NCBI GenBank assembly: GCA_019359125.1
Contig: JAHHHY010000002.1
Location: forward strand, 248,001 to 312,000
Length of the DNA: 64,000 bases
Reading direction: 5' to 3'
Origin: Pleurocapsa minor GSE-CHR-MK 17-07R
GTDB taxonomy: Bacteria > Chloroflexota > Anaerolineae > Aggregatilineales > Phototrophicaceae
The notes under the pieces are model-generated. The model worked only from the letters and a program-made list of their open reading frames with translations. It had not been told where the DNA came from and searched no databases. Both the position numbers and the translations under genes were made by a program. This document shows, piece after piece, positions 41,407 through 44,694 of this stretch (positions within the stretch are counted from its first letter, which is position 1; every line of letters begins with the position of its first letter).

Positions 41407-41416
41407 ACGTCAGGCG
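41400..41416. terminator. Small palindrome spanning both convergent stop codons
   Basis: CGCCTGA (41400-41406), three bases, and TCAGGCG (41410-41416): a 7-bp stem that contains the TGA stop of the DUF421 gene on one strand and of the ABC-F gene on the other. It may be a compact two-way stop signal; no U tract is present. Confidence 0.5.
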
Positions 41417-43053
41417 GGCAGGGCGTGCGCGCTGCCTAGATGAATCCGCTGCCCGCCGAAACGCTCGATGAAGCGCCGATCATGCGATGCCGCGATCACG
41501 GCTCCCTCGAACGAGGCCAGCGCGTTTTCAAAGCTCTCCACCACATCAAAGCTGAGATAGTTGGTCGGCTCGTCCAGAATGAGCAGATTCGCGCCAGACG
41601 CGATCAGCCGGGCAAGCTGCACTTTACGCCGCTGGCCCAGGCTCATGCCCCGCGCCGGCGTATCCAGTGACTCGTAGCGCATCAGCCCCATGCTGATAAT
41701 CAGCGATTTCAGGGCCTGGTCGTCCTGCGGCAGATCGCGCCGGAACGCCTCGAACACGGTTCCACCCAACCATAACAGCTCGGCTTCCTGATCCAGATAG
41801 CCAGGGATGACGCCCGGATTGAGCGCGACATAGCCCGTATCCGGCTGAATCAGCCCGGCCATCAGGCGCAGCAGCGTGCTTTTGCCCGCGCCATTATCGC
41901 CCGTGACGAGGATGCGCGCGCCGTTGTGCACCGTCAGTGACAGCTCGTGCAGCACGGTCACGCCGTCATAGGCCTTGCTCACGCGCTCAAGCTGAAGCGG
42001 GATGCGGCTGTCCAGTGCATGCGCCCCAAACTGCGCGGCGAAACGCAGCGGCACAGGCGGTCGCGGAATCGGGTCGGCCTCGATGCGCGCCAGCTTTTCC
42101 TCTGCAGAGCGGATGCGTTTGCTGGCCGTGGCCGCGTGCGTGTCGCGCTTGATATTCTTGACGAACTTGTCATTGTCGGTCACCTCGCGGAAGCGGTCGT
42201 TACGCCGCGCCGTCACCGCGATTTCAAACTTCAGGGCCTTGATCTCTTCGCCCTGGCGGATGAAGTCTTCCTCCCACTTGCGGCGCTCGGCCTGCTTTGC
42301 TGCTGCGTAGCCGTCGTAACGGTCGCGATACAGCCGGCCAGACCGCGTGTGCTCGTCGATTTCAAAAATGCCGGTCGCGACCGCGTTCAGGAAAGCGCGG
42401 TCGTGCGAGGCCATCAGCGCCGCCCCGCGATACGCTTTCAGCGTGCCTTCCAGCCAGTCCAGCATGCCCGCGTCCAGATGATTGGTCGGCTCGTCCAGCA
42501 GCAGCACATCGGGCGACTGAATCAGCAGCAGCGCCAGCGACGCGCGCGTTTTCTCGCCGCCGGACAACGTGTCAAAGGGCTGCGCGTGCGCGATGTGGGC
42601 GACGCCCAGGCCGGTCAGCGCCGCGTCGATGCGGCTGTCCAGCGCATAGCCATCGGCGCGCTCAAACGCCTCCTGCAAGTCGCCATAGCGGGCCAGCGCA
42701 GCGGCCAGGCCGTCGCCCCCCAGCGCGGCAAAGCTGCTCTCCAGCGCGCGCATGTCCGCCTCCAGCCCGCGCACCCAGGCGGCCGACGCGTCGATTAAAT
42801 CGCCCAGGGTGCGGCCAGCCTGCGGCGCGATATGCTGCGGCAGATAGCCCAGGCGCAGGCCGTCCGCCAGCGTGACGGTCCCGCCGTCAGCTGTCAGCTC
42901 ACTGGCGAGGATGCGCAGCAGGGTGGTCTTGCCGACGCCGTTGGCGCCCACCAGGCCGATGCGCTCGCCGCTGTGCAGCGCCAGCGTGATGTCGCGCAGG
43001 ATGGCGGCATCGCCAAAAAACTTCGAAAGTTGTCGAATGGATAGGGATTGCAA
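41410..43053 (-). CDS. ABC-F family ATPase (ribosome-associated)
   Basis: A 547-residue soluble protein with two ABC ATPase domains and no membrane domain. Domain 1: Walker A GANGVGKTT, signature LSGGEK, Walker B LLLDEPTNHLD. A charged linker follows (about 240-320, RRKWEEDFIRQGEEIKALKF), the P-site tRNA-interaction motif. Domain 2: GDNGAGKST, a diverged signature MSLGQRRK, and LLILDEPTNYLS. ABC-F proteins act on the ribosome, either in antibiotic resistance or in translation quality control. The start is TTG 43053, fixed by CGGAGG eight bases upstream; the ATG just after that site is out of frame. A TTGACA promoter, a 7-codon leader ORF and an attenuator-like terminator precede it, which favours drug- or stall-inducible control. 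Confidence 0.9.
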   Translation of the reverse strand: MQSLSIRQLSKFFGDAAILRDITLALHSGERIGLVGANGVGKTTLLRILASELTADGGTVTLADGLRLGYLPQHIAPQAGRTLGDLIDASAAWVRGLEADMRALESSFAALGGDGLAAALARYGDLQEAFERADGYALDSRIDAALTGLGVAHIAHAQPFDTLSGGEKTRASLALLLIQSPDVLLLDEPTNHLDAGMLDWLEGTLKAYRGAALMASHDRAFLNAVATGIFEIDEHTRSGRLYRDRYDGYAAAKQAERRKWEEDFIRQGEEIKALKFEIAVTARRNDRFREVTDNDKFVKNIKRDTHAATASKRIRSAEEKLARIEADPIPRPPVPLRFAAQFGAHALDSRIPLQLERVSKAYDGVTVLHELSLTVHNGARILVTGDNGAGKSTLLRLMAGLIQPDTGYVALNPGVIPGYLDQEAELLWLGGTVFEAFRRDLPQDDQALKSLIISMGLMRYESLDTPARGMSLGQRRKVQLARLIASGANLLILDEPTNYLSFDVVESFENALASFEGAVIAASHDRRFIERFGGQRIHLGSAHALPA

Positions 43054-43073
43054 TTGTCATGCCTCCGGAATGC

Positions 43074-43104
43074 AAAAACGCTCGAAAAACAGATTCGATT
43101 AGCG
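43074..43104 (-). terminator. Attenuator-like terminator in the ABC-F leader
   Basis: Read on the minus strand, CGCT-AAT-CGAA pairs with TTCGAGCG (eight pairs with a three-base bulge) around a seven-base loop, followed at once by TTTTTG. It lies 21 bases before the TTG start. The left arm includes codon 7 and the first base of the stop of the leader ORF, so a ribosome there would block it. An alternative pairing joins TTCGA at 43112-43116 with TCGAA at 43094-43098. Confidence 0.55.
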
Positions 43105-43122
43105 GTTTGCGTCGAAGCGCAT
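43099..43122 (-). CDS. Putative 7-residue leader peptide for the ABC-F gene
   Basis: ATG-CGC-TTC-GAC-GCA-AAC-CGC-TAA encodes MRFDANR. A GAAAGG element sits seven bases before the ATG. The ORF lies about 65 bases into the predicted transcript and its last codon and stop form part of the left arm of the terminator hairpin. Short upstream ORFs of this kind control several antibiotic-inducible ABC-F and erm genes. Expression is not proven; the case rests on position and overlap. Confidence 0.45.
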   Translation of the reverse strand: MRFDANR

Positions 43123-43193
43123 GACGGACCTTTCACTAATGGGGATAAAACCGTACGCGCGGCGGATGATTCACGCCCCGGTTACGTGCTTTC

Positions 43194-43222
43194 AGGATAT
43201 GCGAGGGGTCAGGAAATGTCAA
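43194..43222 (-). promoter_or_regulatory. Sigma-70-type promoter for the ABC-F gene
   Basis: On the minus strand TTGACA (43217-43222), a 17-base spacer and TATCCT (43194-43199). Transcription would begin near 43187, giving a leader of about 134 bases with the leader ORF and attenuator. Confidence 0.75.
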
Positions 43223-43232
43223 GAAGGAGTAA

Positions 43233-43260
43233 TGGGTGATGAGTGATGGGTGATGCGTGA
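43233..43260 (+). repeat. Heptamer repeat array (4 units)
   Basis: TGGGTGA, TGAGTGA, TGGGTGA, TGCGTGA, four contiguous seven-base units, directly behind the -35 element of the ABC-F promoter. Related in unit length and TGAGT core to the arrays at 28688-28855. Confidence 0.85.
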
Positions 43261-43371
43261 TGTACCGTATTGGTGACGCAATTTTGACGCTATGTAAGCG
43301 GTAGCCCAATCCTGACCATACGCCCGGAGTTTATCTGCTAAACTCGAAGTGACAGGATCGGGAGCAGAACA

Positions 43372-44694
43372 ATGACCAGTTTAGTTGCATGGGCTGTCGC
43401 GACAATGGTGTCATTTGCAGTGCAGGGGTTCAACAACCCTGTCATTGTGACGATTTTTCCCTATGAAGGCTCAATTACATTTGTCTCGGTCGCGCAGGAT
43501 GGCTCGACGCAAATTGTAGGTGAACTGCCTGCTGATTACCGACTGTGGCAATATCAGACTTATAGTGCGGATCAAAGGCACCTGGAGAGTCCAGACAGCA
43601 TCGCATTGTCGCCGGACGGGCAGTTTGCTGCCGTTTCTACCAGCCGCGGTGAAGATTTCATGCTGGACGTGTTTCGTACCAATGGAACGCTTCACTTTTC
43701 GATAGGCACCGAGACGCCGGTGCTGGCTGAATGGAGGCCAGATGGGTCTGGCTTTGCGTTTGTAACCAATTATGCGGCGTACAACGGAGATGCTGATCTG
43801 GGCGTCATGTATCTGGATGCGACTGCGCGCCAGGTGCGTCAACTCATTCCGCGTAGCAGGGTCACATTACCATACGATCTGGTATGGAGCAGTTCAGATG
43901 AGCTTTCGTTAATTGCCCGTGAGGAATCTGGCTCGGCACTACTATCGGTGTCATTCGATGGTGTGGTGACGGCGCTGCTGGAACTGACCTGGAATGGTGG
44001 GCCTGGCACATTTGGAAGTATCTGTGAGCGTGAATGGTCACCCAATATGCAGGTTTGGTATGTGGTGGTGGGTTGTATTGGCAGTCCAGAGTCCATCGTG
44101 TTAGAGGAATTGTATCGGGTTACGCCGGATGGCACCGCGCAGCGTGTGCTCACTGCGCCGGAGGCCTACCGCGCCCCTGATGTGTTTCAGGCACGGCATA
44201 ATATTGCTGGCGTTGAAATTGCTGGGGATGAAGTGTATGTACTGCTGCAGGAATGGATGTTCGTCCCTGATACTGAAGTAGCGCCAACATGGCACATTTT
44301 GCGCATGCGTGGTGAGTCGTGGGAGGAAGTTGTTTCACTCCCTTCTGTTGCTGGCAATAATGATGCGTTCAGCTACACACATGCGGCAACTTCACCAAAT
44401 GGCCGCTACATGGCCGTTGGGCGATATCGTTATTTGGTTGATCCAACGATTGCCAACGCACTTCTCGTTGTTGACCTGATGACAGGCGATATTGTTCGTA
44501 CGATCGATTTACTTGCTGTTGCCAGTTTTAGCGACGCGCTGCTTTGGTTCAGCGATGATGCGTTTCTGTATGGCGTAAACTACTACGGCCAGGGTTACCC
44601 GATGATGAGTAATTTTCTGCTGGTTGCCGCCATGGACGCACAATTGTCAGGCGAAATCGTCGTGCCACTCAACGACCCTGTATGGCTTCCTTAA
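43372..44694 (+). CDS. Beta-propeller (TolB/WD40-like) protein of unknown function
   Basis: A 440-residue protein with a hydrophobic N-terminus (1-20) that may be a signal or anchor. The body has repeats of the TolB-like blade pattern: DSIALSPDGQFAAVSTSRG, LAEWRPDGSGFAFVTN, LVWSSSDELSLIA, AATSPNGRYMAVGRY and LLWFSDDAFLYGVN, consistent with a six- to seven-bladed propeller. No enzyme motif is seen. Codon use is less GC-rich than the surrounding genes, a mild sign of transfer. An extended -10 (TGCTAAACT, about 43336-43344) and GGGAGCAG precede the ATG. It stands alone between the ABC-F promoter and a repeat-rich gap. Confidence 0.6.
   Translation: MTSLVAWAVATMVSFAVQGFNNPVIVTIFPYEGSITFVSVAQDGSTQIVGELPADYRLWQYQTYSADQRHLESPDSIALSPDGQFAAVSTSRGEDFMLDVFRTNGTLHFSIGTETPVLAEWRPDGSGFAFVTNYAAYNGDADLGVMYLDATARQVRQLIPRSRVTLPYDLVWSSSDELSLIAREESGSALLSVSFDGVVTALLELTWNGGPGTFGSICEREWSPNMQVWYVVVGCIGSPESIVLEELYRVTPDGTAQRVLTAPEAYRAPDVFQARHNIAGVEIAGDEVYVLLQEWMFVPDTEVAPTWHILRMRGESWEEVVSLPSVAGNNDAFSYTHAATSPNGRYMAVGRYRYLVDPTIANALLVVDLMTGDIVRTIDLLAVASFSDALLWFSDDAFLYGVNYYGQGYPMMSNFLLVAAMDAQLSGEIVVPLNDPVWLP

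Follow-up and report, generated by a model that had tools for sequence, protein, structure and literature searches.

A probable ribosome-mediated attenuator upstream of a chromosomal ABC-F gene in the Aggregatilineales, with compact and extended leader forms

Introduction

In the window, by which we mean the whole 64,000-nucleotide stretch of the Pleurocapsa minor GSE-CHR-MK 17-07R assembly that was analysed, an ABC-F gene is preceded by a seven-codon open reading frame (ORF) and a terminator-like hairpin, and a sequence-only reading had proposed that a ribosome stalled on the short ORF lets transcription continue into the gene. The question raised by this locus is whether a translated leader controls the ABC-F gene and, if so, whether control would be exerted on transcription, on translation, or on both. 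The principle of leader-controlled ABC-F genes is already known: in the vmlR leader of Bacillus subtilis, a short upstream ORF (uORF) encoding the tripeptide MIN lies within an anti-antiterminator hairpin and is followed by an antiterminator and an intrinsic terminator ahead of the ABC-F target, with NusG-dependent pausing and (p)ppGpp named as further inputs (excerpt of Takada et al. 2022, PMC9226507).

Results

All of the elements that had been listed from the sequence are present on the minus strand. A sigma-70-type promoter, read directly from the letters at positions 43194 to 43222, consists of TTGACA (43222 to 43217), a 17-nt spacer, and TATCCT (43199 to 43194). It is followed by a ribosome-binding site, GAAAGG (43129 to 43134), and by the leader ORF (43099 to 43122; ATG CGC TTC GAC GCA AAC CGC TAA), which encodes MRFDANR in seven codons plus stop; both have equivalents in relatives, where the Shine-Dalgarno (SD)-like match lies a few nucleotides, often 6 or 7, 5' of the ATG. 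A hairpin and U-run resembling an intrinsic terminator occupy 43074 to 43104, with CGC-taa-TCGAA and TTCGA-GCG as arms (43104 to 43079; 3-nt bulge) and TTTTT at 43078 to 43074. Folded alone this hairpin reaches only -6.0 kcal/mol (-7.3 for a slightly longer variant), so it is a plausible but weak terminator. The ABC-F SD, CGGAGG (43067 to 43062), is indeed placed only for the TTG start at 43053 to 43051; a nearby ATG, one base 3' of this SD, is not in the ABC-F frame. The pattern GNGAAAGGNNNNNCATGCGC occurs a single time in the genome, at this locus. None of the Rfam 15 covariance models matched in the window at the gathering threshold, and the region from 42900 to 43400 gave only two snoRNA matches on the opposite strand (E values of 1.2 and 3.8). 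Divergent from the ABC-F gene, a 440-amino-acid ORF on the plus strand (43372 to 44694) has no Pfam or NCBIfam match.

The gene downstream (41410 to 43053, minus strand) encodes 547 amino acids and is predicted from its sequence to yield a ribosome-protecting protein: it scores 395.6 bits against the curated NCBIfam profile ribo_prot_ABC_F, above the cut-off of 380. The top-scoring profile is that of the TlrC/CarA/OleB/SrmB family, at 431 bits and under its own cut-off of 800, and the best named match in the search for related loci was 40% identical, from Actinomadura. The TTG is credible as the start codon because it aligns with the ATG of a relative (L017); the two proteins begin MQSLS and MQTLS, respectively.

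Orthologs were searched in 61 genomes, in 396 genomes of the class, and in 154 genomes of the order, and were divided into group A, with 46 closer orthologs (38 within the order and 8 outside it), and group B, with 42 more distant ones; the line between them, at an E value of about 1e-181 (profile A1), was drawn by hand, and two loci near it (G502 and G506) were assigned to B. Within the order, 48 of the 154 genomes match at E values of at most 1e-170, comprising 38 in group A, 7 in group B, and 3 with a 5'-less or split gene (G009 and G471, in which the 5' end is missing, and G027). Comparison of relatives for the short ORF, which the earlier reading had put forward as a check, found a leader in every one of the 37 order-level group-A orthologs that have enough upstream sequence (all but G438, left out for its upstream region of only 121 nt). 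A script that applied a permissive SD rule made 34 of these calls, and 3 (G001, G007, and G008) were made by eye; where the script returned several candidates at one locus, one was picked by hand. The leaders are 7 to 12 codons long, with one of 4 codons in G016. Among the 15 order-level group-B loci, leaders were accepted at 3 (G502, G506, and G452), 1 was possible (G459), and none was accepted at the other 11. No leader of such size was accepted for the 8 group-A orthologs outside the order, where G371 and G407 have candidates of 18 and 24 codons. By eye, a leader was not seen at the partial loci G005, G034, and G033, a possible GTG-started one was seen at G027, and none like it precedes the two other ABC-F genes of the window genome (L215 and L216).

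Shuffled sequences provide a baseline for this distribution. Under a strict SD rule, leader ORFs of 4 to 12 codons were found in 24 of the 44 group-A loci with 300 nt of upstream sequence, compared to a mean of 0.6 and a maximum of 4 in dinucleotide shuffles; group B had them at 4 of 42 loci (shuffle mean 0.8, maximum 4). Of 37 leaders scanned for promoter-like hexamers, 28 have them 91 to 110 nt 5' of the ATG (shuffles: mean 0.6, maximum 2), the set scanned here being 34 order-level group-A leaders, with that of G461 taken from the wrong start, plus those of G502, G506, and G452. A conserved short ORF with its own SD therefore stands upstream of the target gene, as it would in a ribosome-mediated attenuator. 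A single genome could yield a seven-codon ORF and a weak hairpin at random, but a chance arrangement upstream of a constitutive gene is contradicted both by this conservation of leader and promoter relative to shuffles and by the helix covariation described below, and we regard it as very improbable.

The leader peptides have no evident common motif; arginine is the second residue in 17 of 37 and the last in 14 of 37, counts in which the leader of G461 is taken from the wrong start. Such heterogeneity, together with the frequent terminal arginine, would suit a leader that senses general translation stress rather than antibiotics and an ABC-F protein that serves as a housekeeping translation factor, and the gene is chromosomal, widespread in the order, and of predicted function only. 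The protein nonetheless lies above the ribosomal-protection cut-off, the window leader contains no run of any one amino-acid codon, and its genome has two further ABC-F genes at which no such leader was seen by eye, so we consider this explanation quite improbable. As a separate observation made by eye, a TCCCC..GAA....GTC stretch recurs 10 to 40 nt 5' of the leader SD in many of the longer leaders, and it is partly present in the window as well (TATCCCCATTAGTGAAAGG).

In 33 leaders, which we call extended, a distance of 155 to 281 nt separates the start of the ORF from the first ABC-F codon in the alignment. Of these 33, 24 go on to a terminator motif, frequently GGCGTTTTTGATTC, and 9 lack one, the motif list having been derived from the same leader sequences in which it was counted; the 24 terminator hairpins range from -6 to -30 kcal/mol, with 18 of them between -15 and -25. 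Two further pairings compete. In the first, the leader ORF (region 1) folds onto the segment immediately 3' of its stop codon (region 2), giving a long anti-antiterminator hairpin (helix 1:2) that is present in most of the 33 individual folds and contains much of the ORF. In the second, region 2 pairs with the terminator instead, at its 5' half and its loop (helix 2:3), as exemplified by GGATTACC after the leader stop and GGTAATCC in the terminator of G458 and by GAGAC..CTCTG and CAGAG..GTCTC in G433 and G057.

RNAalifold on MAFFT alignments recovered only 7 pairs for the leader hairpin and, for the whole element, only the terminator. Because MAFFT aligns the helix arms poorly, we instead permuted the pairing partners among genomes, using one genome per genus, 500 permutations, and 20 draws. 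In the raw version, from which G461 was left out, the mean duplex energy was -20.7 natively and -17.2 permuted for helix 1:2 (16 genera), and -27.8 and -22.6, respectively, for helix 2:3 (13 genera); for both helices, 0 of 500 permutations were as good as the native pairing in all 20 draws. Shared base composition could produce such a signal, but a rerun in which the energy of composition-matched shuffles was subtracted, and to which G461 was added with the right start, argues against this: the native excess was -5.95 versus -2.42 permuted for helix 1:2 (34 loci) and -5.63 versus -0.66 for helix 2:3 (25 loci), and again none of the 500 permutations equalled the native pairing in any of the 20 draws, for either helix. 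Both competing helices thus covary across the extended relatives. Taken singly, loci gave an uneven signal and were often unremarkable: when each was compared to 200 shuffles of itself, the native pairing was among the best 5% at 10 of 24 loci for helix 1:2 and at 9 of 24 for helix 2:3, with G013 among the worst for the latter (193 of 200 shuffles as good). For four leaders outside the raw permutation, a set that leaves out G459, for which the wrong start codon had been used, helix 1:2 was in the best 6% for three and helix 2:3 in the best 10% for one.

We also folded the extended leaders with a simulated ribosome, an equilibrium calculation with an assumed footprint that ignores co-transcriptional kinetics. 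With the P site on codons 1 to 6, the mean number of predicted antiterminator pairs rose to between 9.7 and 13.0, compared to 1.4 without a ribosome, and more than 8 pairs formed in 11 to 15 of 24 loci; the mean fell to 7.6 at codon 7 and to 3.4 beyond. Mean terminator pairs numbered 9.9 without a ribosome and 6.8 to 8.0 at codons 1 to 6, then 8.8 and 9.6. Covariation and simulation together thus point to mutually exclusive structures tied to leader occupancy in the extended relatives, and with the conservation described above they support the proposal that a translated leader controls the ABC-F gene through an attenuator. One leader, that of G461, had been taken as compact on account of an ATG that lies within its terminator; both the RNA model described next and a re-reading indicate instead a normal extended leader encoding MTTDSAK.

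An RNA model built from 16 extended leaders was searched in the 154 genomes and gave 17 strong matches (E < 1e-7), all 5' of ABC-F orthologs: the 16 training leaders and that of G466, which was not in the training set. Within the limited reach of this model, which misses the compact leaders, G000 (the window genome) included, and many diverged ones, the element is thus not seen controlling other genes. Five sub-threshold matches (G458, G465, G468, G024, and G472) were read as possible leaders of other genes, and four were rejected, as each falls within a long ORF or at its beginning; the match in G465 stays a candidate, the strand that was read there showing just overlapping ORFs of some 100 codons. 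A simpler pattern, an SD followed by ATGCGC, has eight matches away from ABC-F genes, of which five begin ORFs of at least 315 codons, one a 49-codon ORF, and two (L206 and L210) ORFs of 10 and 8 codons. A second leader type, unrelated to this one, was noted ahead of group-B ABC-F genes that belong to other orders of the class (L170, L172, L173, L178, and L183), with 7-codon ORFs in four of these five loci (MTEKIAA, MTNTITV, MTDTFAA, and MIELIIA), a common element like GACCACGCGCCTGCTGTGA in all five at up to 3 mismatches, and a terminator in the three loci read (L172, L173, and L178). Upstream of the ABC-F genes of G426 and G371 (L034 and L035), two tandem terminator-like hairpins, each ending GTGGCCGTTTTT, were seen by eye; no short leader was accepted there, and G371 has its 18-codon ORF, with AGGAG, further upstream.

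The window leader belongs to a compact form shared with G010 and G011, genomes of one genus in which about 45 nt separate the leader stop from the ABC-F gene. From the leader SD to the coding sequence, the DNA of the window genome is 66% and 73% identical to that of G010 and G011, whereas identity is 53% and 51% over the 86 nt that precede this stretch and 60% within the coding sequence; the counterparts of MRFDANR are MRSALIR and MRSALTR. In the window only 69 nt lie between the leader ATG and the ABC-F start, and there is no separate antiterminator element. The sequence-only reading had proposed a competing pairing of TTCGA (43116 to 43112) with TCGAA (43098 to 43094); these are mutually complementary, but the dominant predicted fold is another one, a nested OFF fold that sets the leader start on the ABC-F SD and that the reading had missed. 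In this minimum-free-energy (MFE) structure, a single nested hairpin of -28.1 kcal/mol (z score of -2.4; -1.1 in G010 and -2.5 in G011), the anti-SD arm GUCAUGC-g-CUUCG (43125 to 43113), which overlaps the leader start codon, forms 12 bp with CGGAGGCAUGAC, the ABC-F SD plus the following GCATGAC (43067 to 43056), and encloses the terminator hairpin. All three compact leaders have the helix in both their MFE and their centroid fold; of its 12 pairs, the window keeps 12, G010 keeps 11, and G011 keeps 12, which makes 35 of 36 pair cells. The changes are one-sided, without a double compensatory change, which amounts to conservation rather than covariation; covariation is seen for the two competing helices of the extended relatives, and for the compact form the exclusive structures are indicated by folding only. 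Within 43053 to 43067, the out-of-frame ATG one base 3' of the ABC-F SD is kept in all three genomes (GGAGGCATGNCAATTG), which its position inside the SD helix would explain. A quick tree does not separate one origin from several for the three compact leaders.

Folding predicts that a ribosome on the compact leader eases access to the SD. The cost of opening the SD was 10.1, 10.5, and 8.4 kcal/mol without a ribosome in the window, G010, and G011, and 2.7 to 4.7, 5.4 to 6.0, and 5.0 to 5.7 kcal/mol, respectively, with a ribosome on the leader, while its unpaired probability went from 0.00 to only about 0.2 to 0.3, the SD staying mostly paired because weaker local pairing remains. Shuffled leaders matched the ribosome-free burial of the SD in 17, 14, and 44 of 300 cases. 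Predictions for the terminator are less uniform. In nascent RNA of the window, pairing of the terminator arm was 0.68 without a ribosome; a ribosome at codon 1 raised it to 0.98, one at codon 4 lowered it to 0.48, and at codons 5 to 8 it came to 0.20 to 0.31; in G010 it was 0.85 without a ribosome, about 0.5 at codon 1, and 0.04 to 0.27 at codons 5 to 8; and in G011 it was 0.09 without a ribosome, since another fold wins there, and 0.43 with one at codon 1. The proposed masking of the left arm by a stalled ribosome is therefore borne out by the window folds from about codon 4 onward and not at codon 1, where the hairpin persists. Overall, these folds leave the transcriptional step uncertain in the compact leaders and make the SD step their more uniform feature.

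If attenuation acted on transcription only, with the ribosome masking the left arm of the terminator, the SD pairing would be incidental, as it might be given that about 5 to 15% of shuffles reach the same burial; the low right-arm pairing at codons 5 to 8 (0.20 to 0.31) and the terminator motif in 24 of the 33 non-compact leaders also fit this account, which we find unlikely in view of an SD helix that appears in the MFE and centroid folds of three compact leaders with 35 of 36 pair cells kept. The converse, that the compact leader attenuates translation only and its hairpin and U-run are a relic of an ancestral terminator, is a possibility we take seriously, if with more doubt than belief. 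The window hairpin is weak (-6.0 kcal/mol with a 3-nt bulge, compared to -6 to -30 kcal/mol in the 24 extended relatives), stalls at the start codon ease SD opening yet leave the hairpin formed, and in G011 the arm is paired at just 0.09 without a ribosome and 0.43 at codon 1. Against a relic, the U-run is kept directly 3' of the GAGCG arm in all three compact genomes; moreover, a terminator of -7.9 kcal/mol is functional for msrD (excerpt of Fostier et al. 2023, PMC10314930), so that one of that strength is in principle enough. Since the leader start sequesters the ABC-F SD in the dominant fold, we take translation attenuation to be at least as likely as transcription attenuation; on these models, translation is probably attenuated in the compact form of the window, and transcription perhaps as well.

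Discussion

In this study, we characterized a leader upstream of a chromosomal ABC-F gene with a predicted role in ribosome protection, and we conclude with good confidence that the window locus is a ribosome-mediated attenuator of that gene. The analysis shows the parts of the locus, their conservation, the covariation in relatives, and the predicted folds; we infer that the leader is translated, that the terminator acts, that drugs elicit a response, and that the protein protects ribosomes. Without stress, the leader would be translated fast or left empty, and the RNA would fold so that the intrinsic terminator forms; in the compact form the ABC-F SD would also be buried by the leader's own start region, and expression of the ABC-F gene would be kept low. 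A ribosome-targeting drug would delay a ribosome on the first leader codons, covering the leader start region. In the extended relatives this may free the element after the leader so that the antiterminator forms, and in the window it may ease SD opening and, from about codon 4, also block the terminator.

Comparison to known systems, for which we draw on excerpts of the cited papers, places this element near several of them. The three helices of the extended relatives and the kind of target are those of vmlR, which also has an SD-burying hairpin, whereas the leaders here are mostly 7 to 12 codons long and unrelated in sequence to its uORF (PMC9226507). The window itself does not show the three helices that its extended relatives do, and we do not file it as vmlR-type because the separate antiterminator is missing. 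The ermC leader is not known to need a terminator, and its peptide is not known to be related to those described here. In ermC, as may be the case here, a buried SD becomes accessible when a ribosome stalls on the leader, although the target there is a 23S rRNA methyltransferase rather than an ABC-F protein (PMC10219788). The cplR leader of Clostridioides difficile likewise combines a terminator, SD burial, a short uORF, and an ABC-F target, but there the terminator stem itself buries the SD, whereas in the window the leader start does so, around the terminator hairpin (Obana et al. 2023, PMC10201436). The msrDL-msrD system likewise has a short leader, of six codons (MYLIFM), an intrinsic terminator, of -7.9 kcal/mol, and an ABC-F target; its leader encodes a macrolide-arrest peptide that is held when the stop codon is reached, whereas the leaders here have no such shared motif and the extended relatives are predicted to respond worst to ribosomes beyond codon 7 (PMC10314930).

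The lack of a peptide motif and the location of the ORF largely within helix 1:2 fit a drug that acts on initiation or on the first steps of elongation and is not very selective for sequence, as has been argued for pleuromutilin, lincosamide, streptogramin A, and nucleoside drugs (PMC10201436). We tentatively suggest, somewhat short of an even balance of belief, that one order keeps a peptide-independent drug sensor that would respond to any ribosome delay in the first six leader codons, its codons being dictated by RNA pairing, and that this sensor was rebuilt in the sublineage of the window with the leader start region as anti-SD, shifting from transcriptional to mainly translational control within one genus.

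The example in the order of the window appears to be new; in the open-licence literature, as covered by titles and the starts of abstracts, no such leader was described for Chloroflexota. It adds a lineage to those with leader-controlled ABC-F genes, and control by a leader suggests that this ABC-F protein is an inducible intrinsic resistance factor. Further, the extended and compact leaders of orthologous genes form a natural series in which to follow the replacement of one kind of attenuation, transcriptional or translational, by the other.
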